This document shows, one piece after another, positions 2 to 23,167 of a stretch of DNA of 23,167 bases. Origin of the DNA: a virus; IMG/VR virus record IMGVR_UViG_3300011116_000600, positions 1-23,167 of that record; one strand, written 5' to 3'. Numbering within the stretch: the stretch's first letter is position 1; each line of letters opens with the position of its first letter. Both the position numbers and the translations under genes were made by a program. The notes beneath the pieces were generated by a model. That model had not been told where the DNA came from. It saw nothing but the letters and a program-made list of their open reading frames with translations, and did no database searches.

Positions 2-1015
2 GTTCTCTGGGTAATCACAGATATAAAAGGATGGTGGAATCCCCCAACACCAGATATATTAGATATCAAGCGTGGGTGGAATGACGGTTCTTATGATGTT
101 AAAGGCAGGTATCAATCTAGAGAGTTAACTTTAGAGGGCTCTATCCTATGCACAGTCCCAACGCTTGCTCCTGCCGCTCGCTCTCGTTTAGTTGCAGCAA
201 TCAACCTTGTAAGACAGGGTGCTTGGCTAAAAACAGAGGAAGACCCTACAAAAGCATCTTATGTTCGCCTTAGCGGGGAACCAAATATAGAAACTGTTAG
301 CGCTAGAGGAAGAATTGATTTTTCTATAGGTCTTAGGGCAGCTGACCCTATTAAATATTCATGGAATAACGATGACGTAACTTATGGATACGACACCGTA
401 TCTATAGATGCTCTATCTGCAAGCCCATCTCACACAGGTATAGCAACCATAACAAATGATGGAGATGTAGATGTTAGCGTGTATTTAAGCATAACTGGTC
501 CAATAGTTGGCCCAGCAAGTATTATAAATACTACAAACTTGGAGACAATTACAATAACAGGCACTCTAAGAGGTGCTACAACAAAGACTGTAAACAATAA
601 AGCTATATCAAATAGCGTTGTTACCCTAACCACATCTACTGCTCACGGACTTGTTATAGGAGATGTAGTGACTGTTTCATCGGTGGGTGCTGCTTATAAC
701 GGAGAACAGGTAGTTAGTTCCATACCTACAACAACAACTTTTACATATTTACTTACTGGGTATACAGGAGGCAATGTATCTTCTACAGCTGGATCTGGAA
801 CAGTAGCCTATGGACCAGACCTTTTAGAGATAGATACTTATAACAGAGAAGTAACTCTTAATGGAGAATTTACTGGAGCAAGATTAAAATTAGAAGTTTA
901 TAACGAATGGATTACTCTCTCTCCTGGAGCAAATGTCATAAGTTTTTATGACAATGGTGCCGCTAATTCTACTGCAAATTTAACTATAGACTACAGGTCT
1001 GGCTGGCTTGCTTAA
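2..1015 (+). CDS. Distal-tail-like (Dit/siphovirus tail component) protein, 5'-truncated
   Basis: The frame is open from the left edge of the window and ends at TAA 1013-1015, leaving 337 residues; the true start lies outside. The last third looks like the C-terminal half of a siphovirus distal tail protein: a beta-rich stretch (around 479-575), then LLEIDTYNREVTLNG and a closing strand set ending in DYRSGWLA. This family normally forms the hub joining tail tube to baseplate. Between the TITGTLRG strand and the IDT..VTLNG strand sits an extra ~79-aa module (575-811) of the type repeated in the next gene. An internal GTG at 479 could be mistaken for a start, but the upstream frame reads as coherent protein. 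The following gene starts 25 nt later and is probably co-transcribed. The Dit assignment rests on motif resemblance and position. Confidence 0.6.
   Translation, partial: VLWVITDIKGWWNPPTPDILDIKRGWNDGSYDVKGRYQSRELTLEGSILCTVPTLAPAARSRLVAAINLVRQGAWLKTEEDPTKASYVRLSGEPNIETVSARGRIDFSIGLRAADPIKYSWNNDDVTYGYDTVSIDALSASPSHTGIATITNDGDVDVSVYLSITGPIVGPASIINTTNLETITITGTLRGATTKTVNNKAISNSVVTLTTSTAHGLVIGDVVTVSSVGAAYNGEQVVSSIPTTTTFTYLLTGYTGGNVSSTAGSGTVAYGPDLLEIDTYNREVTLNGEFTGARLKLEVYNEWITLSPGANVISFYDNGAANSTANLTIDYRSGWLA
575..811 (+). repeat. HGL/GD repeat module, copy 1 (in Dit-like protein)
   Basis: This encodes the core TAHGLVIGDVVTVSSV followed by NGEQVVSSIPTTTTFTY and an N-V-S-S-T-A-rich tail. It is the first of six copies of the same protein module spread over two adjacent tail genes. 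The pattern (HGL..GD.V.I..V, then NG...V.S.PTTTTFTY) resembles modules in phage tail proteins that are often annotated as FCCH-like; that label is from memory. Confidence 0.75.
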
Positions 1016-1040
1016 CTAAAAGACATAAGAAAGAGACGAC

Positions 1041-4001
1041 ATGGCAGAACACGTTATTACACCAGCGGAGTACCGCTATTACGTTGCCGACCTCTTAACT
1101 AATAATGTTTTATCAGAGATAGGGTTTACCTCTGTTTCGTACGAGCGTGCTTTAAGTAAGTCAGGTTCTTTTACTGGAACTATTCCTGTAATTGACTCTA
1201 CGTCTCATCTTAATTTATATGAAAATACTATGCCTGGAAAAACTGCTCTCTATGTATTAAGAGATGGGGTTTGCGTTTGGGGCGGGATTATTTGGGGTAG
1301 ACAATACTCTCCTGCTAATAAAACTTTACAGGTAGATGGCAGCGAGTTTACTAGCTATCTCTACCATAGATTTGTATGGCAAACACTTTATTACGGGTCA
1401 GAATCTTACTACTGCAAACAATATAAAGCAGACGGCTCTACAGCAACTATCTACACAGATGTGTCGCATGGATTTTCTGTAGGAGAGACAATAAGAATTA
1501 GAAGCCTAAATCCTGCTATAAATGGCGACCACACTATAACCTCTACTCCTTCTTCAGCTAGTTTTACTTTTGCTACAGCAGCCACCCTTGCACTTAGCCC
1601 GTCTACTACAGGGCTGGCTAGAACAATTGTTGATACATACGACATGGTTAGAGATTTACTTGGTTACTTAAAAGAAGACTTCTCTAATTTAGAGTTTGTT
1701 AACGATGAGATTAAGCCATCTGATGATTTAGAGTATTCCATATCAAATAAAGAAATGACAGCTGGGTTAGCGACTCTTACTACTACAGTTCCCCATGACT
1801 TGATATCTGGACAACAAATACAGATGGTAGATGTTGATAATTTAATAGATGGATATCAGATTATTACTGCTACACCTGCTTCTGACATTTTCACAGTAGA
1901 TGTTGGTGGCTCGTCTAATATAGCCAGTACTGCCCTTGGCGGAATATCTACTTACAATATAACCTCTGCAACAATAGAAACAACTTCTTTAATAATAACA
2001 ACTAAAGCCATATCTAATAACATTGTAACTCTTACTACTTCAGCCACCCACGGGCTCTCTGTTGGAGACTACATAAGTATCTCTAATGTAGAGAATACTA
2101 TTTCTGTATCAAAAGTTGGAACTACTGGTGTTTCTGGCGAGAAGACAGTAGTAGTTCCAAATAATACAGACATTATAGTTGGAATGATGGCTTTTGGTAC
2201 AGGAATTGGGTCTAGCGCAACTGTACAATCTATTTCAGGTACTACCATAACTTTAGGAATAGCAAATGTAGGAACTGTATCTGGAACTGTAAGTTTTGCA
2301 TACCAAGCTATTATAAACGGGTCTTATTATGTAAGTTCTGTTCCTACAACTACCACTTTCACATATGAAAAATCTTCTCCCAATGTAGCAGCTGTTTCTA
2401 TATCAAAAGCCGATGAAGTTACTAGTTTTTCTATAACAAATAGCGGATCTACTGCTTATTTATATAATTCTAATAAAAACCCTACTTTATATTTAATTAG
2501 AGGAAATACTTATACATTTAATATAAGCGCTGTTGGTCATAATTTTTGGATTCAAACTACTAGTGGCGGATACAGTTCAGGGAATGTGTACTCTTCAGGT
2601 GTAACAGGTAACGGTACTGCAAACGGTTCTATTATATTTACAGTTCCATCTAACGCTCCATCTACTCTCTACTATCAGTCCCAGCAAGATAGTGTTATGT
2701 CTGGAAGATTAACCATATACAGTTATGGTCAAGTTTCTTATAAGTCTTGCATTTTAACAACATCTACACCTCACGGGCTTTCTACAGGAAAGAGTTTTAT
2801 AGTTTCTGATGTAGGTGCTGATTATGATGGTACATTTGCAGTATCTAGTGTCCCGAATAGCACGTCCTTAAAATATAACTCTTTATCCTTACTTAATCGA
2901 GCAACAGAAGCAGTCTACGGGGGAACTTTAAAATGGGGTCCTAGAGCAGTTGCTGGAACATATGGAGCCTACTCTGGAAACTCGGATACTGACATACAGG
3001 TATCTGAAGACTTAAGCGGAAAATATATAGGGGTATCCCAGCAAATATTTAGAGGATCAGATATGCGATCTTTTGGAGATATATTAGAAGAGTTTTCTAA
3101 AGACTTAAATGGTTTTGAGTACAGGATAGATTGCGATTTTCAAAGTGGTTCTTTTGTACGAACATTTAGTTTTGTTCCATTTATAGATCCTCCTAATAAA
3201 ATTGCTGTAGTAAATAAAGCTCTTACATCAAATGTTGGAACTATCACTACAGAAAGTGCTCACGGGCTTTCGGTCGGGGATGAGATAGTGATTACAGATG
3301 TAGGTCTTTATTTTAATGGCACTAGAGAAATACTTTCTACCCCGACAACTACTACTTTTACATTCTCTTCTTATGCTAGCAACGTTTCCTCTACAGCATG
3401 TTCTGGTTATATAGGAATAGTTCATCCGCTTAGTGTTTTAGGTGCAGATCAGTTTGTTTTTGAGTACCCAGGGAATGTGCTTCAATTTAATCTAACTGAG
3501 AATGCAGAAAACTCTGCAACTAGAATGTGGGTTGTGGGAGCTACTGATAATTTAGACAATACTGCAAGTGCTCCTTATGCCGCATCTACATCAACAGACT
3601 TATTAGATTTAGGATGGCCACTTATTGACCAGGTTGATTCTAAAACTGACAATGTAACTGTTGCATATGGAGAGAGTGCACTTTATTCGTACGCTAGAGA
3701 TTTTGCTGGAGAGGCTAGACCACCAGAGGGAAGTTTTTCCATAACAATTAACGGCTCTATAGGACCATATGTTGGAGATTTTTTACCAGGAGATTGGTGC
3801 TCAATTATTATAGATGACGACTTTGTTAGAATGCGTCTTGCTAGTGATTTAGAGCCAAGAGGCGATATAATTGTTAGAAAAATTATAGGATATAAAGTTT
3901 CTGTACCTGATAGCCCGTCTTTCCCTGAAAGTGTGACGCTAGAACTTATAAGTGAATGGAAAGAAGACCGAAGAATATCTACTCTAAAAACTACTGGTTA
4001 G
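1041..4001 (+). CDS. Large tail/baseplate protein with shuffled repeat modules and a cupredoxin-like domain
   Basis: This 986-aa protein starts at ATG 1041 behind an AAGAAAGAG-type ribosome site. The framework parts (residues about 1-123, 195-230, 640-720, 793-986) resemble actinophage minor tail proteins of the ReqiPepy6 gp37-like/tail-hub type: YRYYVADLLTNNVL, then a WGGIIWGRQY strand, and a C-terminal GDWCSIIIDDDFVRMRL segment. Five copies of an HGL..GD module are inserted at about residues 124-194, 231-305, 318-445, 566-616 and 722-792. Copy three is split by a different module at about 352-422. Residues 453-562 form a cupredoxin-like beta domain. More than half of the protein is therefore inserted domains, probably surface-exposed decoration of the baseplate. 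The next gene follows after 15 nt. The tail-hub role is inferred from order and weak similarity. Confidence 0.65.
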   Translation: MAEHVITPAEYRYYVADLLTNNVLSEIGFTSVSYERALSKSGSFTGTIPVIDSTSHLNLYENTMPGKTALYVLRDGVCVWGGIIWGRQYSPANKTLQVDGSEFTSYLYHRFVWQTLYYGSESYYCKQYKADGSTATIYTDVSHGFSVGETIRIRSLNPAINGDHTITSTPSSASFTFATAATLALSPSTTGLARTIVDTYDMVRDLLGYLKEDFSNLEFVNDEIKPSDDLEYSISNKEMTAGLATLTTTVPHDLISGQQIQMVDVDNLIDGYQIITATPASDIFTVDVGGSSNIASTALGGISTYNITSATIETTSLIITTKAISNNIVTLTTSATHGLSVGDYISISNVENTISVSKVGTTGVSGEKTVVVPNNTDIIVGMMAFGTGIGSSATVQSISGTTITLGIANVGTVSGTVSFAYQAIINGSYYVSSVPTTTTFTYEKSSPNVAAVSISKADEVTSFSITNSGSTAYLYNSNKNPTLYLIRGNTYTFNISAVGHNFWIQTTSGGYSSGNVYSSGVTGNGTANGSIIFTVPSNAPSTLYYQSQQDSVMSGRLTIYSYGQVSYKSCILTTSTPHGLSTGKSFIVSDVGADYDGTFAVSSVPNSTSLKYNSLSLLNRATEAVYGGTLKWGPRAVAGTYGAYSGNSDTDIQVSEDLSGKYIGVSQQIFRGSDMRSFGDILEEFSKDLNGFEYRIDCDFQSGSFVRTFSFVPFIDPPNKIAVVNKALTSNVGTITTESAHGLSVGDEIVITDVGLYFNGTREILSTPTTTTFTFSSYASNVSSTACSGYIGIVHPLSVLGADQFVFEYPGNVLQFNLTENAENSATRMWVVGATDNLDNTASAPYAASTSTDLLDLGWPLIDQVDSKTDNVTVAYGESALYSYARDFAGEARPPEGSFSITINGSIGPYVGDFLPGDWCSIIIDDDFVRMRLASDLEPRGDIIVRKIIGYKVSVPDSPSFPESVTLELISEWKEDRRISTLKTTG
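1410..1622 (+). repeat. HGL/GD repeat module, copy 2
   Basis: This encodes VSHGFSVGETIRIRSL, then NGDHTITSTPSSASFTF, at residues about 124-194 of the baseplate protein. It interrupts the framework between the YLYHRFVWQTL segment and the DTYDMVRDLLGYL segment. Confidence 0.7.
1731..1955 (+). repeat. HGL/GD repeat module, copy 3 (divergent)
   Basis: This encodes VPHDLISGQQIQMVDV, then DGYQIITATPASDIFTV, at residues about 231-305. HGL has become HDL and the GD pair is lost (GQ), so this copy is the most diverged in the core. The module boundaries and spacing are preserved. Confidence 0.6.
1992..2375 (+). repeat. HGL/GD repeat module, copy 4, split by another module
   Basis: The first half encodes KAISNNIVTLTTSATHGLSV and ISISNV. 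The second half, NGSYYVSSVPTTTTFTY, appears only after about 70 foreign residues. The KAISN(N/S)(I/V)VTLTTS lead-in is nearly identical to copy 1 in the upstream gene, so these two copies are probably recently related. Confidence 0.7.
2094..2306 (+). other. Module nested inside repeat copy 4
   Basis: Residues about 352-422 carry VGTTGVSGEKTVVVPNNTDI, then VGMMAFGTGIGSSATV, SISGTTITL and a closing VSGTVSF strand. This is a known style of beta module in phage tail fibres (G.GI...T.V.SI.GTTITL). It sits exactly between the two halves of the surrounding HGL/GD module without disrupting either half. The boundaries are approximate. Confidence 0.6.
2397..2726 (+). other. Cupredoxin-like domain with altered metal ligands
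   Basis: Residues about 453-562 read NPTLYLIRGNTYTFNI, VGHNFWIQT, then FTVPSNAPSTLYYQSQQDSV and MSG. The layout matches phage cupredoxin-like domains ending in an LYYQCQ.H..M.G signature. His500 and Met553 are kept, but the expected Cys is Ser (S548) and the second His is Asp (D550), so copper binding is unlikely. The fold assignment rests on motif memory. Confidence 0.6.
2736..2888 (+). repeat. HGL/GD repeat module, copy 5 (short)
   Basis: This encodes TPHGLSTGKSFIVSDV, then DGTFAVSSVPNSTSLKY, at residues about 566-616. It lacks the longer lead-in and the S-T-A tail found in the other copies and directly follows the cupredoxin-like domain. Confidence 0.7.
3204..3416 (+). repeat. HGL/GD repeat module, copy 6
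   Basis: This encodes SAHGLSVGDEIVITDV, then NGTREILSTPTTTTFTF and NVSSTACSGYIG, at residues about 722-792. The NVSSTA.SG tail closely matches the tail of copy 1 in the upstream gene. Confidence 0.75.
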
Positions 4002-4016
4002 GAAAGATGAATAAAA

Positions 4017-5429
4017 ATGGTGAGTAGAAGAAGAAGTAGTAATAAGAATTTAGGCAATAATATTGCTGAAGTTCATAGAAGGCTGCGATATTTAGAAAGA
4101 CGCCCTGCCAAAACTAAACTTGGAAGTAGAATTGTAAACGCTGCTGCTATTACCCCAAACACTATTACTGAAGATCAAGTAAGTTTTGGCGCGACCATAA
4201 TAACTGATGAGACAGACCTAACTTTAGCAACAGATAATCCTAAAGACGGTCTTATAGTAATAAATCCAGGTACTGGAGAGTCTGCTGTCTATAGTTACGA
4301 TTTAGATTCTTATATTTATATATCTGATACTACTGCTCAAACTAGTTCTATAGAGGCTATATCTATAGCTCAGGGGAAAAGTAAGACCTATGTAAGTGCC
4401 TCGGAGCCTACTGGAGGAACCTACAACGAAGGCGATCTCTGGATAGATACTGATGATGGAAATAAACTTTATAGGTATAACGGCACCGCCTGGGTGTCTA
4501 CGCAAGATGCTGCAATCAGTACAGCACAGGCTACTGCAAATGGTAAAAATACAATTCACTACTCCACCTCAGACCCAGGCTCGACTGCAAATATCGCGGG
4601 TGATATCTGGTGGAAATACGCTTCAGGTATTGTAATAAAACAGTATGTTGGTGCTGGAGGAACTACTTGGAATGAATCTACTGTAGGAAATGCTGTAATT
4701 GCTAATTTAGATGCAGGAAAAATTACAGCAGGCTACCTTGATGTTTCTGGATCGGTAAAAATTACTACTGATAAAACAAAATCAGGAAACCAATCACGTG
4801 TAGAGATAAACTCTGACGGTTTTTATGCATACGATGGCGACGTTGCTACTGTGTCCATTACAAAGAGTGGAGTAGCAGCATTTTCTGGAGCAATATATGC
4901 TACCAGTGGCACTTTCAGCGGGACTATTAATGCTAGTGGGACTATCTCTGGCGGAACTATTTCTGGAGCAACTATTATTGGCGGGATATTTCGAACTGCC
5001 GCGACAGGCAATACAAGAGTAGAAATTAATTCGACTACATCTGTAGATTTAATTAAATTTTATGTAGGGGCTGGCGCAGACCCAGTAGGGCAAATTGGAG
5101 TTCAATCCAACGGTGTTGTATTAATAGGTCCTGCATCTAACGTTTTAGGTCTTACACCTGACGGTGGTGCAGCGTTAACCACTACTCAGCATCAGTTAAC
5201 TTTTTCATCTAACGGTAGTGCAAAGTTAGGCGCTGCTCTAAATTATATTCTTTTTAACGAGTCTAGTACTTCAGTAGCTTTACATAGTTCTAGTCCTGCA
5301 GGTAGCCTTGCTCTTAGAAATATACAGGCACTTACTGTAGGCACAGCCACAAGTCAAGGCGTATCTTCGGACGGAGCTGTAACAGCAGGCTATAATTGGA
5401 CTGTAGGAGACATAGTTCTTACTTACTAA
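4017..5429 (+). CDS. Tail fibre/tip-like protein with glycine-serine beta repeats
   Basis: This 470-aa protein uses ATG 4017 behind a GGAAAGA site. The N-terminus is basic with a short predicted coiled coil (IAEVHRRLRYLERRP). The middle has two consecutive carrier-type strand motifs, GDLWIDTDDGNKLYRYNGTAWVS and later GDIWWKY...TWNES, then NLDAGKITAGYLDVSGSV. Such motifs are common in siphovirus central-fibre and tip proteins. Residues about 285-325 carry a short-period repeat (GTFSG/TINASG/TISGG/TISGA/TIIGG) typical of a beta-helix or beta-prism shaft. The C-terminal part has many S/G-rich beta strands. It is probably a trimeric structural fibre or receptor-facing tip protein. No catalytic motif is visible. 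It lies between the baseplate protein and the adhesin, 14 nt from the latter's start. Confidence 0.6.
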   Translation: MVSRRRSSNKNLGNNIAEVHRRLRYLERRPAKTKLGSRIVNAAAITPNTITEDQVSFGATIITDETDLTLATDNPKDGLIVINPGTGESAVYSYDLDSYIYISDTTAQTSSIEAISIAQGKSKTYVSASEPTGGTYNEGDLWIDTDDGNKLYRYNGTAWVSTQDAAISTAQATANGKNTIHYSTSDPGSTANIAGDIWWKYASGIVIKQYVGAGGTTWNESTVGNAVIANLDAGKITAGYLDVSGSVKITTDKTKSGNQSRVEINSDGFYAYDGDVATVSITKSGVAAFSGAIYATSGTFSGTINASGTISGGTISGATIIGGIFRTAATGNTRVEINSTTSVDLIKFYVGAGADPVGQIGVQSNGVVLIGPASNVLGLTPDGGAALTTTQHQLTFSSNGSAKLGAALNYILFNESSTSVALHSSSPAGSLALRNIQALTVGTATSQGVSSDGAVTAGYNWTVGDIVLTY

Positions 5430-5443
5430 GAATACTTCCAACT

Positions 5444-7927
5444 ATGTCAAAATATATAAATGTAGGCGGAACTTGGAAACTTGTAAGCGGTGCTTATATA
5501 AATGTTGCTGGATACTGGAAACGAATTGTATCTGGGTATATAAATGTTGCTGGATATTGGAAACTATTTTTTGAGTATCAACTAACTCCTGCTATTGCCT
5601 CTCGCGCTGAAATTTCTGTAAATAGTTCTACATTTCCCACAACTCTTACTGGAACAAACTATCACTGGACTAATGCAACTTCTTTGACTTACAAATTTCA
5701 AGTATCAACTGACGATACTACATGGACTGACATTGCTTCGGCTGTATACATTGCTAATCCTTCCATAGCGGCTTCAAATACAGTAACTTATACAACCCTG
5801 CAAGCCGACTATACCCAAGCTCTTATGTATTTTAGATTTTTAGTAATAGCGGTAAATTCTTACTACTCAACTACAACTACTTCTTACAGCACATCCACCG
5901 CTGTGGGGATAGCCCCTCTAGCACCTACAAACCTAAGCGCTACAAAAAGTGGCTCTTCTGTAATAAATCTTTCATGGACAGCCTCTGGATTTTCTACCAC
6001 AACTTATGAAATTTACTGGGGAGGTACATCTTCTAGTACTCCTAATGCTGGAAGTACTCCAGATTTTTATGTATCTGCTCCTACAACTACCTATTCCAAT
6101 ACAGGGCTATCTCCAGTTACTACCAGATATTATTGGATAAGAGCAGTAAATATATACGGCACAAGTGCATGGTCTACAAGTAACGCAGTTTTTGCAACGA
6201 CAGATGCATCGGTTCCATCTGCTCCAACTATAGGAACTGTGACTGTAACTAATAATTCAACAGTATCTATACCATTCACAGCGCCTGCAAGTAACGGCGG
6301 GGCATCCATCACCAGCTACACAACCACCTCCAGCCCTTCAATTTCATTAAGTACCTCTGGAACTTCTACCCCACTCACAGTTACAGGTACTTTTGTTTTA
6401 GGTCAGGCTTACACATTCACAATTGTTGCTAATAACTCTGCTGGCTCATCTGCATCTTCTAGCGCAAGTAACTCTGTTACCCCTAATGTTGCTTCTCGCC
6501 CTGGACCACCAACACTGACATCTTCTTCTTCTACATCTTCTTCTATTACTTTTGCTTGGAGTATTGGCTCAGATTCAAGTTCATTAGTAAAAATAGATAT
6601 AGGATTTTCTGCAGCAGGTGGTACAGATGTTGTTAACGGGGCTACTACAACTTCTTCATCTAGAACTCAGTCCAGCCTTACTTCTACCCATACTTACTAT
6701 GTACGCATAACCTCGTACAGCACTGCATACGGTTACGGAGACTACTTAGACTTTACTGTAGCAACTACAGGGACAAGTCCTTTGCAGACTTCTTCCCCCT
6801 CCTTGAGTGGAAGTGGCTTATACAACACAAACTTAACTTTTTCTGGTGGCTCTTATACAAATACTGCATCCTTAACTACCCATCTTGTATTTGCTGTTGC
6901 TAATTCTTTTACTAGTTCAACTCCTACAAAGACCTCTTCTAGTCCTTATACAATAACAGCTCTTGATTCTGACTCTCCAGGAAATTATTTTGCAGTTAGA
7001 GATACAGTAGTAGGAACCAATTCTATAACTTACTATTACTATTCCAGCGCAACTCATACAAGCCAAGACACTATGCCTGTTCCAACATTTTCTGCTGCAA
7101 CATCTGCTATTGGCGGATTCTCATTTACAATTACAAACTACGATGCTGGTAATATTTATTATATTTCTAGTGTATCTAATGGCTCTGTTACTTCTGCTGG
7201 TGGCATGTACCCAACTACAAGCACGATAACTGTTACAGGACTTACCTCCGGGCAATCTTCTACGGTAGCACTTGTTGTAGATAAAACAGGTTTTGTAGAC
7301 AACACTGCTAGCATAACTGGAACCGCTACAGTTGTTATAACCCCAGGGGTTCCCAACATAGTGTCTACTTCTTCTACAAACAGCACTATAACAATTACTT
7401 GGTCAAGTGGTGGAGATACAGATTCTTACAGAATGACTGTAGGTACTTCTGCAGGGGCATCAAATGTAAGAGACTTGTACACTTCCTCTACTTCCTCTAC
7501 AACAACTGGCCTTAGCCAGTCTTTCACATACTACATAAGTATTTATGGATACTGGTCAGCAACATCCACCTACGGCTCTCCAGCATCCACAACAATTGCT
7601 ACTACAGGCTCTGGAACAACTGCAGGTACTACCACTACAACTGCAGGTACTACCACTACAACTGCAGGTACTACCACTACTACTACCACTACTACTACCA
7701 CTACTACTACTACTGCAGCTCCTTCAACTAGAACCGTTCCAAGCGTAGTCGGAACTCTTGAGACTAATGCAATTTCAGCAATACAAGCACAAGGATTAGT
7801 TGCCTCTGTATCTTATGATTACGGTGGAAACTTCTCTAATGATGGAACAGTTAAATCCCAAAGCCCTGCTGGTGGTGCCACCGTGAATGTAGGGTCTACA
7901 GTAAGCATAGTAGTTTGGGTTTACTAA
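5444..7927 (+). CDS. Adhesin-like tail protein: WK repeats, FN3 domains, poly-Thr stalk, PASTA domain
   Basis: The chosen start is ATG 5444, giving 827 aa; an upstream in-frame codon at 5396 would overlap the previous gene by 34 nt. Residues about 4-41 hold three 14-aa repeats (YINV.G.WK). Ig/FN3-like domains follow at about 157-245, 256-345, 353-440 and 635-720, with conserved W and Y..(R/I)A.N strands. A Thr-only stalk occupies about 726-757 (TAGTTTT repeats then a long T run). The last ~64 residues (764-827) match a PASTA domain: VPSVVGTLETNAISAIQAQG, then SQSPAGGATVNVGSTVSIVV. PASTA domains in cell-wall kinases and PBPs are associated with muropeptide or wall binding, so a host-surface role fits. 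No signal peptide is visible. The downstream SAM enzyme starts 1 nt after the stop. Confidence 0.75.
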   Translation: MSKYINVGGTWKLVSGAYINVAGYWKRIVSGYINVAGYWKLFFEYQLTPAIASRAEISVNSSTFPTTLTGTNYHWTNATSLTYKFQVSTDDTTWTDIASAVYIANPSIAASNTVTYTTLQADYTQALMYFRFLVIAVNSYYSTTTTSYSTSTAVGIAPLAPTNLSATKSGSSVINLSWTASGFSTTTYEIYWGGTSSSTPNAGSTPDFYVSAPTTTYSNTGLSPVTTRYYWIRAVNIYGTSAWSTSNAVFATTDASVPSAPTIGTVTVTNNSTVSIPFTAPASNGGASITSYTTTSSPSISLSTSGTSTPLTVTGTFVLGQAYTFTIVANNSAGSSASSSASNSVTPNVASRPGPPTLTSSSSTSSSITFAWSIGSDSSSLVKIDIGFSAAGGTDVVNGATTTSSSRTQSSLTSTHTYYVRITSYSTAYGYGDYLDFTVATTGTSPLQTSSPSLSGSGLYNTNLTFSGGSYTNTASLTTHLVFAVANSFTSSTPTKTSSSPYTITALDSDSPGNYFAVRDTVVGTNSITYYYYSSATHTSQDTMPVPTFSAATSAIGGFSFTITNYDAGNIYYISSVSNGSVTSAGGMYPTTSTITVTGLTSGQSSTVALVVDKTGFVDNTASITGTATVVITPGVPNIVSTSSTNSTITITWSSGGDTDSYRMTVGTSAGASNVRDLYTSSTSSTTTGLSQSFTYYISIYGYWSATSTYGSPASTTIATTGSGTTAGTTTTTAGTTTTTAGTTTTTTTTTTTTTTTAAPSTRTVPSVVGTLETNAISAIQAQGLVASVSYDYGGNFSNDGTVKSQSPAGGATVNVGSTVSIVVWVY
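5453..5564 (+). repeat. Three 42-nt direct repeats encoding YINV.G.WK
   Basis: Copies begin at 5453, 5495 and 5537 (tatataaatgt...tggaaac). The second and third are identical over about 28 nt except for one base; the first is diverged. The period of 42 nt equals 14 codons, so copy number can change without a frameshift. Confidence 0.85.
7619..7714 (+). repeat. 21-nt tandem repeat plus ACT/ACC triplet array (poly-Thr stalk)
   Basis: Three in-frame 21-nt units (actgcaggtactaccactac + a/t) at 7619-7681 are followed by a run of act/acc triplets to about 7714. The array encodes the Thr-rich stalk between the last FN3-like domain and the PASTA domain. Both periods are multiples of three, so slippage would change stalk length but not frame. 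Confidence 0.9.
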
Positions 7928-7928
7928 T

Positions 7929-8930
7929 ATGACATACTTTTTTCCAATAAGTATGGCTCAAATAGATCCAAACGGTCTATGTAATTCTGGGTGTTGGTTT
8001 TGTCCAGTTGCTTATACTCCTAACCCAGAGTTTGCAAAAAAGCATATGCCAATAGAGCTTCTAGAAAGCATTGTAAAACAATTACATGAAGGAAAAGGCT
8101 CTTTTGTCTCTGAAAGTTTTAATTTTATATACACCGCTCACTACAATGAAGTTTTATTGTATAAGTATTTTAAAGAAATGTTAGATATATTTAGAAAATA
8201 TAGAATACAAACAATCGTATTAACTAATGGAATACCTCTTACTAAAAATAAAATAGATATTATTAAAGAGTATAAAGATGTGGTTTATGGAATATGCATG
8301 AATATACCTGCAGCAGACGAGGAATCTTGGTCAAGATATACCAACTCTAACCCAAAAATATTTAATAAAGTTATGGAAAATATAGAGTACGCGATGGAGA
8401 ATCTTCCAGAGATGGTAGTCCATGGTCAACTGTCTATACAGATAAATGGGGTGGATAACAACTCTTTGGCTAAAAACGGCGGGTGGGTAGAGATTTTAGG
8501 CAATGCCCCCGAGATGAACCTAAGCATTGAAGATGGTGATTTAAATAAGCACTACATTAAATTCAAAGAGATGTTTCCTAAACTAAACGTGTATAAAATG
8601 AATAATTTAATAGACCGCGCAGGGCATTTAGATAAGTACGGTGCTCTCACAAATATACAAACTATTGACAAGACCCTAAGAAAAGACAACAAAAAAGTTA
8701 TCAGATGCGGTAATGGTATAGAAGTTGGTGGAAGACCTAATGGGTGGATACACGTAAATCCAAATGGAGATATGTTTATATGCTGCAATGACTATGATTT
8801 TGAAACCATATATGGAAATATTAATGAAAAACCAATTAAAGACATATGGATGAGTTTAGACCACCATAAAATGATAATAAATTCTTATAAAACGCTGTGT
8901 ACCACCTGCGCATCTGCTATCTGGGGTTAA
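7929..8930 (+). CDS. Radical SAM enzyme with SPASM-like C-terminus
   Basis: This 333-aa protein starts at ATG 7929, one nucleotide after the adhesin stop. Residues 18-25 are CNSGCWFC, the C-X3-C-X2-C motif that binds the SAM-cleaving 4Fe-4S cluster. The C-terminal part has Cys260, then NPNGDMFICC (C285, C286), a GNINEKPIKDIW turn and CTTC (C324, C327). That is the layout of SPASM/twitch domains that carry auxiliary clusters and occur in enzymes modifying peptides or carbohydrates. The substrate cannot be read from sequence. It sits in a 1-nt-spaced chain with the adhesin upstream and a glycosyltransferase downstream, suggesting tail-protein or glycan modification. The radical SAM call is firm; SPASM is likely; function is open. 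Confidence 0.85.
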   Translation: MTYFFPISMAQIDPNGLCNSGCWFCPVAYTPNPEFAKKHMPIELLESIVKQLHEGKGSFVSESFNFIYTAHYNEVLLYKYFKEMLDIFRKYRIQTIVLTNGIPLTKNKIDIIKEYKDVVYGICMNIPAADEESWSRYTNSNPKIFNKVMENIEYAMENLPEMVVHGQLSIQINGVDNNSLAKNGGWVEILGNAPEMNLSIEDGDLNKHYIKFKEMFPKLNVYKMNNLIDRAGHLDKYGALTNIQTIDKTLRKDNKKVIRCGNGIEVGGRPNGWIHVNPNGDMFICCNDYDFETIYGNINEKPIKDIWMSLDHHKMIINSYKTLCTTCASAIWG

Positions 8931-8931
8931 T

Positions 8932-9831
8932 ATGTCAAGTATCTTCATACAAATAGCTGCATATCACGACTATGAACTTTCAAGAACAATACTTGACTCT
9001 ATAAAAAAATCATCTGGAGAAAATAATATAAATTTTGGAGTACATCTTTGTTATTATCAAAACAATAATATAAAAATACCTGATTTACCAAATGTAAAAT
9101 ATGAAGTAAGCAGGGCTCCTGAAAATATAGGTTTAGGTGTTGGTAGGCTTATAGCCCATAGCTTCTATGCTGGAGAAGATTACTACTTTCAGATAGATTC
9201 GCATAGCCGTTTTGACCAAGATTGGGATAAAAAATTAATATCTTGGGTGAAAGAGTATCAAGATGTGGGGTTTGAAAAGCCATTAATAACTAACTACCCT
9301 AAAAACTACTCTTACGAGGATATGAAAGTTAAACTAGAAAACTCTACGACTATAACTGTCATCTCTTTTCATGAAAATATTAAACAATTTCAAGAAATAA
9401 TGGTTCCTACTCAGACAGCTATAGGAATCTCTAAAGAAACTGTATTTTCTAAATCAATATCTGGAGGTTGCATATTCACTCTTGGTAGTTTTATAGAGCC
9501 TAATCCAAAGATTGCCTTTTACGGAGAAGAAATATTCATAGCAGCAAGAGCCTATACAAATGGGTTTGACCTACTTGTACCTAAAGAAACCTTCATGTAC
9601 CACCTCTATTACAATCATGACGCCCCTTCAAAAAATCTTAGAAGAATAGTCTGGGAAGATTTTCCTAAAGAATTTAAAGAAATTGATATAGAGTCAAAAA
9701 AACAAATATGGAACACATTCAAAGAGAATAAGGTGGGAGATGGGTATCTAGGAACAGCAAGGACTTTAGAAGAGTTTCAGACCCACACAGGGTTAGATTT
9801 TAAAAACGGAATAGTCAACGAATCTTCTTGA
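8932..9831 (+). CDS. GlcNAc-transferase-family (PF11397/GT60-like) glycosyltransferase
   Basis: This 299-aa protein starts at ATG 8932, one nucleotide after the SAM gene. The N-terminus SSIFIQIAAYHDYELSRTI matches the opening strand of this GT-A family. Residues 86-94 are FQIDSHSRF, where D89-S-H91 takes the place of the usual DXD metal/nucleotide-sugar motif. Further on are FYGEEIFIAARAYTNGFD and a HLYYNHD segment, which are conserved acceptor-side features. Family members in eukaryotes add GlcNAc to hydroxyproline of Skp1, and bacterial and phage members are poorly characterised. The genomic position suggests a phage structural protein or host surface glycan as acceptor, but this is inference. 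It ends before the promoter region, so it probably closes the late tail operon. Confidence 0.8.
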   Translation: MSSIFIQIAAYHDYELSRTILDSIKKSSGENNINFGVHLCYYQNNNIKIPDLPNVKYEVSRAPENIGLGVGRLIAHSFYAGEDYYFQIDSHSRFDQDWDKKLISWVKEYQDVGFEKPLITNYPKNYSYEDMKVKLENSTTITVISFHENIKQFQEIMVPTQTAIGISKETVFSKSISGGCIFTLGSFIEPNPKIAFYGEEIFIAARAYTNGFDLLVPKETFMYHLYYNHDAPSKNLRRIVWEDFPKEFKEIDIESKKQIWNTFKENKVGDGYLGTARTLEEFQTHTGLDFKNGIVNESS

Positions 9832-13469: not shown

Positions 13470-16247
13470 GTGGCGGTATCGGTTGATATTGACGCTAAAG
13501 GCGAGCACATACTTATCAATGCAGAGTGGCGCTATAAAGAGCTCTGTAAGAGCCTTCCTGGAGCCTCCTGGAGCGTCTCAGAGCAGGTATGGCGCGTACC
13601 TTTGAGTTGGACGACCTGTTTAGCGCTACGATCTACGTTTCGTTCGGAGTTGGTAATTAAGCCCAATTTAGCGGCTTGGGCAGCCAACGAGGTAGAGACT
13701 CGTATAAATCCTGCCAATGCTTTAAGAGAGTTAGAAACTTATGATGGGGACAGTGTTCTATTTCCTCACCAGAGAGCAGGAGTTGCTTTCTTAGCAACTG
13801 CTAAAAGAGCCCTCCTAGCCGATGAACCTGGCTTAGGGAAATCACTTGCTAATTCAGAAACTGTACTAACGCCGTCTGGTTTCATACCTATCTCTGAGAT
13901 AGAGGTTGGGTCGTATGTAATCGGTTCAAATGGAAAACCTACAGAGGTTGTAGGAGTTTTTCCTCAGGGGGTTCGTGATATCTATAGAGTTACATTTTCT
14001 GATGGAAGTGATGCTTTAGTAGACCTGAATCATTTATGGCAAGTAGAGAACGCACGTACAGGATTTACCCGTGTGTTAACCACCAACGAGATTATAAAGT
14101 CTGGTTTAAGAAGAAGTGATGGGCATCGCAAGTTCAGAATTCCTCTAGTTTTACCTGTTCAATTCTCTAAAAGTTCTGAATTAGAGATTGATGCGTATGT
14201 TTTAGGACAAATACTCGGTGATGGAAATTGTGATGCATTAGGAAGAACAAGACTAACTACTGCTGACATAGAAACAGTTGAATTAGTAGTCTCTAATGGA
14301 TACCCGCTTACTTATCGTAGTAAATACGATTATTATTTTCCAGGCCTTGCTCCTAAAATGAAAGCACTAAAGTTAAACGGTCTAACATCATCTATTAAAA
14401 AAATCCCAGAAAAATATCTTCGTGCATCCGTCAAAGATAGATTGGCTCTTGTAAGAGGGCTTATGGACTCGGATGGGTGGGTAAGCAAAGATGGAACAAT
14501 AGTTCAATTCACTTCTGTATCTGTAGATCTAGTAGAGGGTATGACAGAGTTAGTTCAATCTCTTGGAGGAATAGTTAGACGCACCTACAAAAATAAACCT
14601 AAGGGAGGAAACTTCCCTGTACATACCTTGACACTTAATACTCCTTTTAATCCTTTTCATTTAGAGCGTAAAGCATCTCTTTGGTACGAGCGTAAAATTT
14701 ATCCTGCTTCTAGGTATATTGATTCAATAGAATTTGTGCGTAAAGAAGAAGCAACATGTATAAAAGTTAAAGCAGAAGATCATTTATTTGTTATGCGTAA
14801 TTACATTGTTACTCATAATACTGCTCAGGCTATTAGAGCCTTAAAAGAGTTACATAATAGAGAAGAAGATGTTTTCCCTATTTTAATTGTTTGCCCGAAC
14901 ACCCTAAAGAAAAACTGGGCTAGAGAATTTAATATGTGGTGGCCTGATGTTAAGACTCAAGTAATTAAAGGCTCTGCGTTACAGCGAAAACGTCAATTTG
15001 AAGAACCTGCTGAAGTTTTTATAATTAATTGGGAATCCCTACGCTCTCATTCGCGACTGGCCTCATACGGTTCTGTGTCTTTAACTAGGTGCAAAGCATG
15101 CGGAGGTCAAGATGAAAAAATTAGTGAGACAAGATGTGAAGTTCACAAACGCGAACTAAATAGCATAGATTTTAAAGCCGTTGTTGCAGACGAATGCCAC
15201 CGGGTAAAAGACCCCAAATCAAAGCAAAATCGTGCACTCTTGTCTGCTTCTGGAAATGCAGAAATTCGTTTTGCTTTAACTGGCACACCTATCTCCAACA
15301 ACGTTGTTGATATGTGGCCAATACTCCACTGGATTTCTACTAAAGATTGGCCAAGTAAGACAAAGTGGATTGAACGAATGGTAGACATCATGCTTAATGC
15401 TTTTGGCGGGATGATGGTTCTAGGCGTAAAACCGCATATGACCGATGAGTTCTATAAAAGCATTAACCCGTATATGCGCAGAATGTTAAAAAAAGTAGTT
15501 CTTCCACATCTACCTCCAGTTATGCATGAGCGTAGAGATGTAGAGATGTCTACTAAGCAGAAGAAGGCTTACGAACAGATGAGAGATAAGATGATTGCCG
15601 AATTAGAATCTGGCGACATACTCTCTGCTCCTGGAATTCTTACTCAAACTATACGACTTCTTCAATTTGCTAGTTCATATGCAACTATGCAGGTAAATGA
15701 AGAAACTGGAGAACAGAAGGCAGTTCTAGGAAATCCTTCTTGCAAGATTGATGCTTTGATGTCTGATATTGAAAACGGAGACTTTGGGGATGACTCGATT
15801 GCTGTATGCGCGGTATCTAAACAACTTATTAATCTATTAAGTGCTGAGTTAACCAAGCAAAATATCTTTCATGGACTGATCACTGGAGACCAAGACGAAG
15901 ACGAGCGACAGAAAGCCATTGACGACTTTCAATCTGGAAGAATAAAATGGATTTTATTTACTGCTCAGGCGGGTGGGGTTGGTATTACCTTGACCGCTGC
16001 TCGTCGTTTGATTATGCTTCAGAGACCTTGGTCTCTAGTAGACCATAAGCAAGTTTTAGATAGAGTTCATAGAATTGGTAGCGAAATTCATGACTCTATT
16101 GTGATTACTGACTATGTTACCGAAGGCACTGTAGAGGAAAGAGTTATCCAAGTCTTAGAAACTAAGGCTGATAACTTTGAACAAATTGTTCGTGACAAAG
16201 ACCAACTGCTTAAACTATTAAAAGAAGATAAAGAGGGGAATCTATGA
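13470..16247 (+). CDS. SNF2-family DNA helicase/ATPase precursor containing an intein
   Basis: Start GTG 13470 sits behind GAGGAG; the precursor is 925 aa. Residues 1-90 form a small N-terminal domain rich in W..vp pattern (SWSVSEQVWRVPLSW), as in SMARCAL1-like phage helicases. Walker A is DEPGLGK (118-124), completed by TAQAI after an intein at 125-450. Further motifs are DECH (574-577), LTGTP (603-607), AQAGGVGITLTAA (motif V) and DRVHRIGS (motif VI). A CX2C...CX2H cluster (C541, C544, C556, H559) is inserted before DECH and could bind zinc. Spliced extein length is 599 aa. It probably remodels forks or recombination intermediates. It overlaps the nuclease gene by ATGA. Confidence 0.9.
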   Translation: MAVSVDIDAKGEHILINAEWRYKELCKSLPGASWSVSEQVWRVPLSWTTCLALRSTFRSELVIKPNLAAWAANEVETRINPANALRELETYDGDSVLFPHQRAGVAFLATAKRALLADEPGLGKSLANSETVLTPSGFIPISEIEVGSYVIGSNGKPTEVVGVFPQGVRDIYRVTFSDGSDALVDLNHLWQVENARTGFTRVLTTNEIIKSGLRRSDGHRKFRIPLVLPVQFSKSSELEIDAYVLGQILGDGNCDALGRTRLTTADIETVELVVSNGYPLTYRSKYDYYFPGLAPKMKALKLNGLTSSIKKIPEKYLRASVKDRLALVRGLMDSDGWVSKDGTIVQFTSVSVDLVEGMTELVQSLGGIVRRTYKNKPKGGNFPVHTLTLNTPFNPFHLERKASLWYERKIYPASRYIDSIEFVRKEEATCIKVKAEDHLFVMRNYIVTHNTAQAIRALKELHNREEDVFPILIVCPNTLKKNWAREFNMWWPDVKTQVIKGSALQRKRQFEEPAEVFIINWESLRSHSRLASYGSVSLTRCKACGGQDEKISETRCEVHKRELNSIDFKAVVADECHRVKDPKSKQNRALLSASGNAEIRFALTGTPISNNVVDMWPILHWISTKDWPSKTKWIERMVDIMLNAFGGMMVLGVKPHMTDEFYKSINPYMRRMLKKVVLPHLPPVMHERRDVEMSTKQKKAYEQMRDKMIAELESGDILSAPGILTQTIRLLQFASSYATMQVNEETGEQKAVLGNPSCKIDALMSDIENGDFGDDSIAVCAVSKQLINLLSAELTKQNIFHGLITGDQDEDERQKAIDDFQSGRIKWILFTAQAGGVGITLTAARRLIMLQRPWSLVDHKQVLDRVHRIGSEIHDSIVITDYVTEGTVEERVIQVLETKADNFEQIVRDKDQLLKLLKEDKEGNL
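13842..14819 (+). mobile_element. Intein with LAGLIDADG homing endonuclease
   Basis: The 326-aa insert begins at Ser1 (SLANSETVLTPSG) directly after the Walker A lysine and ends ...RNYIVTHN, with Thr as +1 residue. The splicing ends are complete: block A at the N-terminus, DLNHLWQV (His188 of the precursor) as a block B candidate, and DHLFVMRNYIVTHN as blocks F/G. Two endonuclease motifs are visible: LGQILGDG (residues 245-252) and LVRGLMDSDG (327-336), each with an acidic residue, so the nuclease may be active. Excision would restore DEPGLGKTAQAI exactly. Confidence 0.92.
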
Positions 16248-20582: not shown

Positions 20583-20602
20583 AGGAGAAAGGGATAGATT
20601 TG
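20583..20602 (+). promoter_or_regulatory. Ribosome site deciding a TTG start
   Basis: AGGAGAAAGGG at 20583-20593 precedes TTG 20600-20602. No ATG is available between the site and the first conserved cysteine of the WhiB-like protein, so the TTG is the most likely start. Confidence 0.65.
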
Positions 20603-20869
20603 TCTAAAAAACCTTGGGAGTTCGAGGACTCTCTCTGCGCAGAAATAGGAACAGAACTTTTTTATATAGAAGACGGGTATAAAGAAGCAAGAGAAGTTAA
20701 TTTAGAATATAAAATGGCAAAAAAATTATGTAGTGGATGCGTAAATTTGATTGATTGTGCCGACTGGGGGATTAAACACGAAGCATTTGGTATATGGGGA
20801 GGGTTGACTCCTATAGAAAGAAGACAGATAAGAAAATGGAAAAAGATAACTCTTAATCAAATTTATTAA
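20600..20869 (+). CDS. whiB: WhiB-family Fe-S transcription regulator
   Basis: This 89-aa protein has a TTG start. Four cysteines, C13, C44, C47 and C53 (SLCAE...CSGCVNLIDCADW), match the C-X29-30-C-X2-C-X5-C cluster ligands of WhiB proteins. GIWGG (64-68) is the WhiB turn, followed by a basic tail (ERRQIRKWKK). WhiB proteins bind region 4 of the primary sigma factor and regulate transcription; phage copies such as WhiBTM4 interfere with host WhiB functions. Presence of this gene is the best evidence for an actinobacterial host. It sits in the late-early small-gene cluster with a second WhiB gene 0.8 kb downstream. Confidence 0.93.
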   Translation: MSKKPWEFEDSLCAEIGTELFYIEDGYKEAREVNLEYKMAKKLCSGCVNLIDCADWGIKHEAFGIWGGLTPIERRQIRKWKKITLNQIY

Positions 20870-21630: not shown

Positions 21631-22146
21631 ATGTGGAAACCTGCGGAGAGCCTAAATTGGCAAAAAAATGCGCTCTGCGCTAAACCCAAAAATAGAAAGT
21701 ATTTGGATTGGTTTTTTTCTAAAGACTTTTCTAAAAAATATGCAGCAAAGAATCTTTGTTTTACCTGCCCTGTAAGAAGCGAGTGTTTGCAGTGGGCATT
21801 AGAGCATAAACAAATATGGGGCATATGGGGCGGAAGAGACGAGATTGATATTAGAAGGACTCTTTCCGTTTCTTATCTAGGGGAAGAAACTCGTAGACGC
21901 AGATATCCTAATTGTCCTTATTGTACTGCTAGGCCAATAAAATTAGAGACTTCTATAGAAAACCTTGGGCCAAACGGAAGGTGGACAACAGCAAAAGTTG
22001 TAACATGCACGGAGTGCAATTTTTCGTGGAGAAGTCGAACGAGTTCAAATGCTGTAGAAGCGTATAAGTTAGATAGAGAAGAAAGATTGATTAAACAAGA
22101 AAAAGAAAAAAATAAAAAGATAAAAAAAGTTAAGAAAAGTAAATAA
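21631..22146 (+). CDS. whiB: WhiB-like protein fused to a zinc ribbon and basic tail
   Basis: This 171-aa protein is about twice the usual WhiB length. The N-terminal half is a complete WhiB domain: C16, C43, C46, C52 (NLCFTCPVRSECLQW) and GIWGG (64-68). A second pair of CX2C motifs, C95/C98 (CPYC) and C126/C129 (CTEC), looks like a zinc ribbon. The last 30 residues are almost all Lys/Glu (EKEKNKKIKKVKKSK), a likely DNA-contacting or disordered tail. The protein may join sigma-factor binding to direct DNA binding. It starts without a ribosome site, probably on a leaderless mRNA. The WhiB part is secure; the ribbon is inferred from spacing. Confidence 0.88.
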   Translation: MWKPAESLNWQKNALCAKPKNRKYLDWFFSKDFSKKYAAKNLCFTCPVRSECLQWALEHKQIWGIWGGRDEIDIRRTLSVSYLGEETRRRRYPNCPYCTARPIKLETSIENLGPNGRWTTAKVVTCTECNFSWRSRTSSNAVEAYKLDREERLIKQEKEKNKKIKKVKKSK

Positions 22147-22806: not shown

Positions 22807-23167
22807 TTAAGCATATGTAAACCCATTCCAATCAACACCACTTGGCATTGTCATTGAAGTCCAAGAGGTTCCATTTGTGGAATAATAGCCCTGCGTAGAA
22901 CCTCTTTCTGCAGTAATATATTTTCCAGCACCAAAAGCACATCCCGTCATTGTCATTGATGATGGGATTGAGCCTTCAGTCCAAGTTATAGCGTCAGTGC
23001 TGCGTGCTGTTTTACTCATTCCATAACTAAACGCCATAAATCCAGCCACACTTCCATAACATATCGCATACCAACCAGCGTACCCACTAGCAATTCCAGT
23101 TCTTGAAGTATAACTTGAACCGTTTGAAGATGACCACCAAGTTGTCCCGCCGCCGCCAGGAGCAGCA
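22807..23167 (-). CDS. Tail-fibre-like protein with propeller-type repeats, truncated by window edge
   Basis: The minus-strand frame is open from the right edge to TAA 22807-22809, giving about 119 C-terminal residues. It begins with a Gly-rich linker (APGGGGTTWWSSSNG). Sialidase/propeller-like blades follow: RSTDAITWTEGSIPSSMTM, then CAFGAGKYI and GYYSTNGTSWTSMTMPSG. The S.DG..WT pattern is typical of phage fibre proteins built from beta-propeller repeats that may bind host glycans. A GTG at 23049 exists internally, but the frame clearly continues upstream. The remainder of the gene lies outside the window. Confidence 0.65.
   Translation of the reverse strand, partial: AAPGGGGTTWWSSSNGSSYTSRTGIASGYAGWYAICYGSVAGFMAFSYGMSKTARSTDAITWTEGSIPSSMTMTGCAFGAGKYITAERGSTQGYYSTNGTSWTSMTMPSGVDWNGFTYA

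Follow-up and report, generated by a model that had tools for sequence, protein, structure and literature searches.

Why does one short module recur six times over two adjoining tail genes of a virus, where did its copies come from, and what could they contribute to the tip of the tail? These questions are raised by the stretch of DNA analysed here (hereafter the window), which is 23,167 bases long and comes from a viral record; the repeat sits in two neighbouring genes on its forward strand.

The two tail genes and their six module copies

The product of the first gene, which is cut at its 5' end by the window, carries the C-terminal domain PF22768 SPP1_Dit (1e-9 in Pfam) and matches phrog_33 (5e-18) and phrog_5577, both of them Dit and minor-tail families of PHROG; judged from its sequence, it is a distal tail protein (Dit) with core and C-terminal domain. 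By sequence, the 986-aa product of the second gene matches only minor-tail and connector PHROGs, e.g., phrog_1885, a minor tail protein family (2e-28). Its AlphaFold model (pLDDT 75.8), on the other hand, aligns with the hub of mycobacteriophage Douge (Z 10.7 over 199 residues), the Bxb1 tail tip (Z 10.2 over 191 residues) and Mu gp44 (Z 9.4 over 167 residues), and also with VgrG-type spikes, so that the predicted fold is that of a hub and the protein is, on this model, the central tail hub. Since residues 3-176 of Mu gp44 spread over model residues 9-713, about 520 residues, comprising copies c2-c5 together with a cupredoxin-like domain and an insert that interrupts c4, are accommodated inside one hub domain, and the model places c6 after that domain, between two hub domains. 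Searches of NCBIfam gave no matches for either protein or for the tail protein of 470 aa encoded downstream of them. Both genes are also carried by relatives that have a name, namely DSL-LC01, recorded as a lake-water actinophage, and otherwise Microbacterium phages; an actinobacterial host is therefore likely for the virus of the window, and the two WhiB-type regulators encoded further downstream are in keeping with such a host.

As for the repeat itself, six copies of a module of about 65-70 aa were recovered, c1 in the Dit and c2-c6 in the hub (Table 1). In a leave-one-out test, in which the profile never included the copy being scored, the six reached 36-71 bits, against maxima of 11-14 bits in 2000 shuffles per copy. 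A preliminary description of this DNA was thus right to report six copies over the two genes, while several of its particulars have to be amended: the span, given as 575-3416, is corrected to 599-3422; the unit of 55-75 aa is not contiguous in c4, which is split by a 70-aa insert; the motif PTTTTFTY is exact in c1 and c4 only; and the motif HGL..GD has diverged to HGF..GE in c2, HDL..GQ in c3 and HGL..GK in c5. Moreover, the insert in c4 sits exactly between the two module halves, in the loop that joins strands 2 and 3, and this nesting of one module in another had been overlooked.

Table 1. Features of the window, and the putative two-gene Dit of its relatives. Bits given for whole copies are leave-one-out scores; the halves of c4 were scored against a family profile of 62 positions.
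Feature	Position	Strand	Remarks
Dit-like distal tail protein gene	2..1015	+	5' end cut by window
Module c1, within Dit C-terminal domain	599..817	+	70.8 bits; slot empty in L010, L104
Central tail hub protein (predicted), gp27/gp44/Tal type, 986 aa	1041..4001	+	phrog_1885 and model alignments
Module c2, inside a hub domain	1422..1628	+	42.8 bits; UBA6 FCCH and phi92 barrel fold matches
Module c3	1737..1961	+	35.7 bits; kept in 58/58 relatives
Module c4, first half (strands 1-2)	2004..2099	+	42.1 bits to family-profile positions 2-29; whole c4, 65.7 bits
70-aa β module nested in c4 β2-β3 loop	2100..2309	+	splits c4; missing in 41/58 relatives
Module c4, second half	2310..2411	+	halves joined, 77 bits to family profile
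Cupredoxin-like domain (putative), between c4 and c5	2427..2717	+	49-50% identity to cyanophage proteins; phrog_677
Module c5	2724..2942	+	44.8 bits; missing in L010, DSL-LC01
Module c6	3216..3422	+	60.7 bits; missing in 36/58 relatives
Tail protein	5396-7927	+	four fibronectin type III matches, Thr-rich linker, C-terminal PASTA domain
Radical SAM/SPASM protein	7929-8930	+	directly after tail genes
GlcNAc-type glycosyltransferase	8932-9831	+	directly after radical SAM/SPASM gene
SNF2-type helicase	13470-16247	+	Walker A (GLGKS...HNT) interrupted by insert; Hint and LAGLIDADG homing-endonuclease matches
Two WhiB-type regulators	20600-20869 and 21631-22146	+	
ORF with repeated W..(S/N)G.....(W/Y)TS motifs	22807-23166	-	
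Putative two-gene Dit of relatives	L023 1997-5689 and 5714-7963		likewise L024-L027, L185-L187, L189, L190, L192, L228, L236

Several other genes of the window deserve mention. The tail protein with fibronectin type III and PASTA matches is a possible peptidoglycan-binding tip, and the radical SAM/SPASM protein and the glycosyltransferase encoded directly behind it might modify tail proteins. The insert that interrupts the Walker A motif of the SNF2-type helicase is probably an intein, because of its Hint and LAGLIDADG matches. The ORF on the reverse strand, for which Pfam gave no match, may encode a propeller-like tail fibre that is truncated where the window stops.

Fold, slots and recursive nesting of the module

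In structure predictions, the copies appear as small barrels in their own right. The predicted model of c2 matches the FCCH domain of UBA6 (Z 10.5, 2.2 Å over 77 residues), the barrel of the phi92 endosialidase (Z 10.0 over 77 residues, 22% identity) and that of K1F (Z 9.1), and the modelled innermost module of a relative's array gives Z 9.3 with UBA6 and Z 9.0-9.1 with the phi92 and K1F barrels. In these predictions, the module has the FCCH fold and the phage endosialidase β-barrel fold (Z 9-10.5). A shared fold is by itself no proof of kinship or function, since unrelated barrels, namely SpNox and riboflavin synthase, reach Z 7.5-8.0. On the level of profiles, E1_FCCH (PF16190) matches the hub at 25.6 bits (1.3e-5) and the Dit at 13.2 bits, both below the curated cut-off of 29.5 bits. 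When the PDB was searched with a profile of 43 diverse copies, 4hiz, the endosialidase of phi92, was hit at 2.7e-4; six of the 43 family members match E1_FCCH, and three match End_beta_barrel PF12195 (best E 0.0018), a domain for which the Pfam search gave no match in the window's own Dit or hub. Nor is there any ubiquitin-activating-enzyme context around the copies of the window, whose carriers are a tail Dit and a tail hub.

Comparison with relatives revealed the slots in which these barrels sit. In the Dits of L010 and L104 the c1 slot is empty, with both flanks intact and aligned, while it is filled in 60 of the 63 Dits compared. Among 58 hub relatives (a single viral-contig scan matched 496), c2, c3 and c4 are present throughout, c6 is present in 21 and absent from 36, the c4 insert occurs in 17 and is absent from 41 (e.g., L004, L005 and L006), and the cupredoxin-like domain is found in 5 and absent from 53; both c5 and c6 are missing in L010 and in phage DSL-LC01. 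The preliminary description had taken the module for an inserted, independently folding domain and had proposed a search for relatives lacking copies cleanly. Such relatives exist for c1, c5, c6, the c4 insert and the cupredoxin-like domain, each of which is missing somewhere, and the empty sites, together with the separate barrels predicted, uphold that view. Its "modular, rapidly evolving" surface is confirmed only in part: some slots do vary, but c2-c4 and, with few exceptions, c1 do not.

Three further observations concern the surroundings of these slots. The domain between c4 and c5 is 49-50% identical to tail proteins of the Prochlorococcus phages P-SSM2 and P-SSM5, making horizontal transfer between actinophages and cyanophages possible; its "cupredoxin-like" character is a reading of the sequence, in a region where the predicted model has low pLDDT. 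The Dits of L017, L018 and L019 (715-717 aa) possess an N-terminal extension of about 330 aa with two further module copies. The module is also present in a gene annotated as major tail protein in Microbacterium phages, e.g., A3Wally (MZ150783, 48608-48802).

The insert in c4 of the window resembles the module in being a barrel of this type, but profile comparison, with 7% probability over 27 columns, does not show it to belong to the same family. In L144, L149, L150, L151, L152, L160 and L170, a complete second module lies inside the same c4 loop, and the empty counterpart, a single module with matching flanks, is found in L148, L164 and L166. Depending on the clade, this loop holds nothing, a member of the same family or a different module. 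The Dit slot of L021 likewise reads first half, full module, second half.

Far deeper arrays occur in Microbacterium phages and their metagenomic relatives, whose hubs bear, at the slot of c5, one full module preceded by five first halves and followed by as many second halves. The automatic count is exactly 5:5 in L186, L187 and L192, and the same layout was read by eye, weaker units included, in L023, L024 and L025; it is preserved in phages only 24-44% identical over that stretch. Their Dit arrays count six levels in L023, L025 and L189 but seven in L024, L026 and L027, and when the two kinds are aligned, the extra 80 or so residues fall exactly within the innermost module, whose second half (FNG..VVETTPTATTFT.RDWD) resumes behind them. 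Tandem duplication was considered as the source of the arrays and rejected, as it predicts alternating halves, whereas a run of first halves, a full module and an equal run of second halves is seen. Because the phages with arrays are related, the shared 5:5 layout does not stand for many independent events; independent support for nesting comes from the differing depths and sites, that is, the one-level cases in c4 and the Dit, five levels in the hub, and six and seven in the Dit.

The structure of such an array was approached with a 476-residue fragment of L186, predicted from ten sequences (pLDDT 87.7). Most E1 matches to it cover the innermost module (model 187-264). Over model 149..303, however, 75 FCCH residues of Uba1 (5um6) align discontinuously at Z 8.3, and 74 residues of UBA7 (9jtc) align over the same range at Z 7.8; in the model, these alignments represent an outer barrel, to which the segment ahead of the inner module contributes the first half and the segment behind it the second. 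The outermost halves of the array would, by extension of this model, pair with each other. Among public predictions, the viral protein A0A6G6XIJ2 is matched over the entire array (E 1e-52, TM 0.61), and birnavirus capsids, the top Foldseek matches to the nested model, were judged spurious in view of their low probability and TM of 0.1. Empty and filled pairs, matched half counts and the model together show that the module's own β2-β3 loop is an accepted insertion site, used recursively to seven levels in relatives. In open-access papers on FCCH domains of phages, on nested baseplate insertions and on the Microbacterium phages, recursive nesting in a phage tail was not found described.

A further arrangement is met in five Microbacterium phages and eight metagenomic relatives. 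Their Dit gene stops within the nested array, and the gene behind it finishes with the strand by which a Dit is normally closed (..RSGW). In Microbacterium phage Pumpernickel, whose host is M. paraoxydans, the two are genes 95 and 96; Zooman, another Microbacterium phage, has M. foliorum as its host. In nine of these 13 loci, gene one has as many first halves as there are second halves at its own end and, five in number, in gene two, the last unit of gene one having been read by eye in L186 and L024; in the other four (L187, L190, L192 and L236), the automatic half counts are unequal or incomplete. When viral contigs were scanned for the second Dit gene, no more than two loci were recovered. 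The simplest reading of these sequences would be that the two chains fold together. We lean slightly towards the full version of it, according to which the barrel nests in itself via the β2-β3 loop to build a hairpin arm, and the Microbacterium-type Dit is encoded by two consecutive genes, the products of which complete five barrels as well as the core of the Dit by complementation in trans. The arm would run out via the first halves, turn at the innermost full barrel and come back via the second halves, with both its ends at the tail tip, and the second Dit gene would supply five second halves and the last strand. A Dit divided between two genes was not found described in the open-access literature; if the reading is true, a core part of the tail initiator exists as a two-chain assembly.

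Possible role and age of the copies

What, then, are these barrels for? We think it probable that plug-in barrels on Dit and hub provide low-affinity, many-valued attachment to actinobacterial surface glycans, and that nesting lengthens the arms. As the fold and the empty sites suggest, the termini of the module lie close together, which would allow a barrel to plug into a surface loop and leave the host domain undisturbed. Sequence, relatives without single copies and predicted structure together show a tail tip decorated with the module, on the Dit ring by c1 and on the central hub by c2-c5 in one domain and c6 between two. Turnover takes the form of gain and loss of whole modules at fixed loops, rather than recent copying between genes. 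Presumably exposed at the surface and, where nested, extended into longer arms, the modules most likely serve as auxiliary glycan-binding sites beside the main receptor-binding proteins.

The main reason for proposing glycan binding is the K1F endosialidase, the barrel of which is one of three polysialic-acid sites and a hotspot of host discrimination, in which mutations such as S460R, S468D and G504V alter the range of hosts infected (PMC12632334). The K1F segment aligned to our module, 424-507, is this same barrel. Furthermore, in evolved Dits the loops of the Dit domain that here holds c1 are known to be occupied by carbohydrate-binding modules (PMC7291167).

The fixation of c2, c3 and c4 in all relatives also fits a structural role, and the strongest rival accordingly holds that the barrels bind no sugar and instead act as structural spacers or docking platforms, spacing the domains of hub and Dit, widening the tip or anchoring side fibres. 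The nested arrays do resemble arms, and there is a precedent in the Dit "arm" of phage p2, which holds its receptor-binding protein (PMC7291167). Nevertheless, c6, c5, the c4 insert and occasionally c1 can be missing while the rest is retained, and among phage barrels of solved structure the one nearest to the module is a binder of polysialic acid; we regard this alternative as rather unlikely.

Weaker still is the idea of a neutral ratchet, in which the modules are tolerated passengers of no selected function, a fold with adjacent ends being easily inserted, into itself included, and seldom lost. It would account for a c4 loop that is empty or variously filled according to clade, as well as for the coexistence of six- and seven-level arrays among relatives. 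The constant layout of the hub array in phages so far diverged, however, and slots that stay filled over long periods, render it improbable.

Hardly credible, finally, is the earlier reading of a single module recently copied or gene-converted between adjoining genes to give a fast-changing surface, which could appeal to the 52% of residues shared by c1 and c4 and to the similar tails of c1 and c6, but which is contradicted by codons, tree and consensus alike. At positions with the same residue, c1 and c4 share the codon in 14 of 34 cases (14.2 expected from codon usage) and c1 and c6 in 14 of 26 (10.9 expected). In a tree of 107 module copies from 18 phages, the copies cluster by slot rather than by phage, with the minimum possible five changes, and every one of the 107 has its best match in another phage at the same slot. 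The shared KAISN lead-in and NVSSTA.SG tail, which the preliminary description had advanced as signs of copying, are both near the family consensus, for a profile of 100 copies reads ATSGTATLTTSAPHGLSVGD..NVASTAVSG, and are therefore not evidence for it. With synonymous codons randomised, the tree ordered by slot and c2-c4 present in 58 of 58 relatives, the copies are not recent; to judge from these sequences, they are paralogs of long standing, each of which has diverged within its own slot.

Comparison with known systems

The module type, decorated Dits and six-level recursive insertion (in RNA polymerase) are each already known. Closest in fold is the barrel of phage endosialidases (phi92, 4hiz; K1F, 1v0e/3ju4; PF12195), likewise part of a phage tail protein; it occurs, however, as a single copy in an enzyme tailspike, whereas the window has several copies in Dit and hub and no enzyme. 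With the FCCH domain of ubiquitin E1 (PF16190), the module has the fold and the HGL..GD motif in common, a resemblance of fold and not of function; another phage protein in the databases, A0A6J5SG50, is already named FCCH. Most database entries with the module are unnamed or minor tail proteins, and a module that recurs in Dit and hub of a large family of actinobacterial phages now gains a fold and a testable role.

The evolved Dits of siphophages of lactic acid bacteria carry, as in the window, a domain in a loop of the peripheral Dit domain, and are accompanied by Tals with extra domains (PMC7291167). The extra domain in a loop of the C-terminal domain, by which such Dits are recognized, is present in the window Dit, as the empty site in L010 and L104 makes evident, and by analogy it may be a carbohydrate-binding module. 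The evolved Dits differ in that their modules have another fold, while here the copies occur in both Dit and hub and are nested in relatives.

The nearest parallel to the nesting itself is SI3 of the cyanobacterial RNA polymerase β' subunit, in which a six-level recursive domain insertion is combined with the rpoC1/rpoC2 gene split (PMC13114784). The phage arrays are alike in their A1-B1-C-B2-A2 nesting, mostly of one barrel-like family, and in the presence of a gene split. Unlike SI3, they belong to tail proteins, reach 5-7 levels at one defined loop with a depth that varies among relatives, and have their gene split inside the nested array. With pairs of empty and filled sites and arrays that stand one level apart, the phages allow one to observe directly how a recursively nested protein grows.
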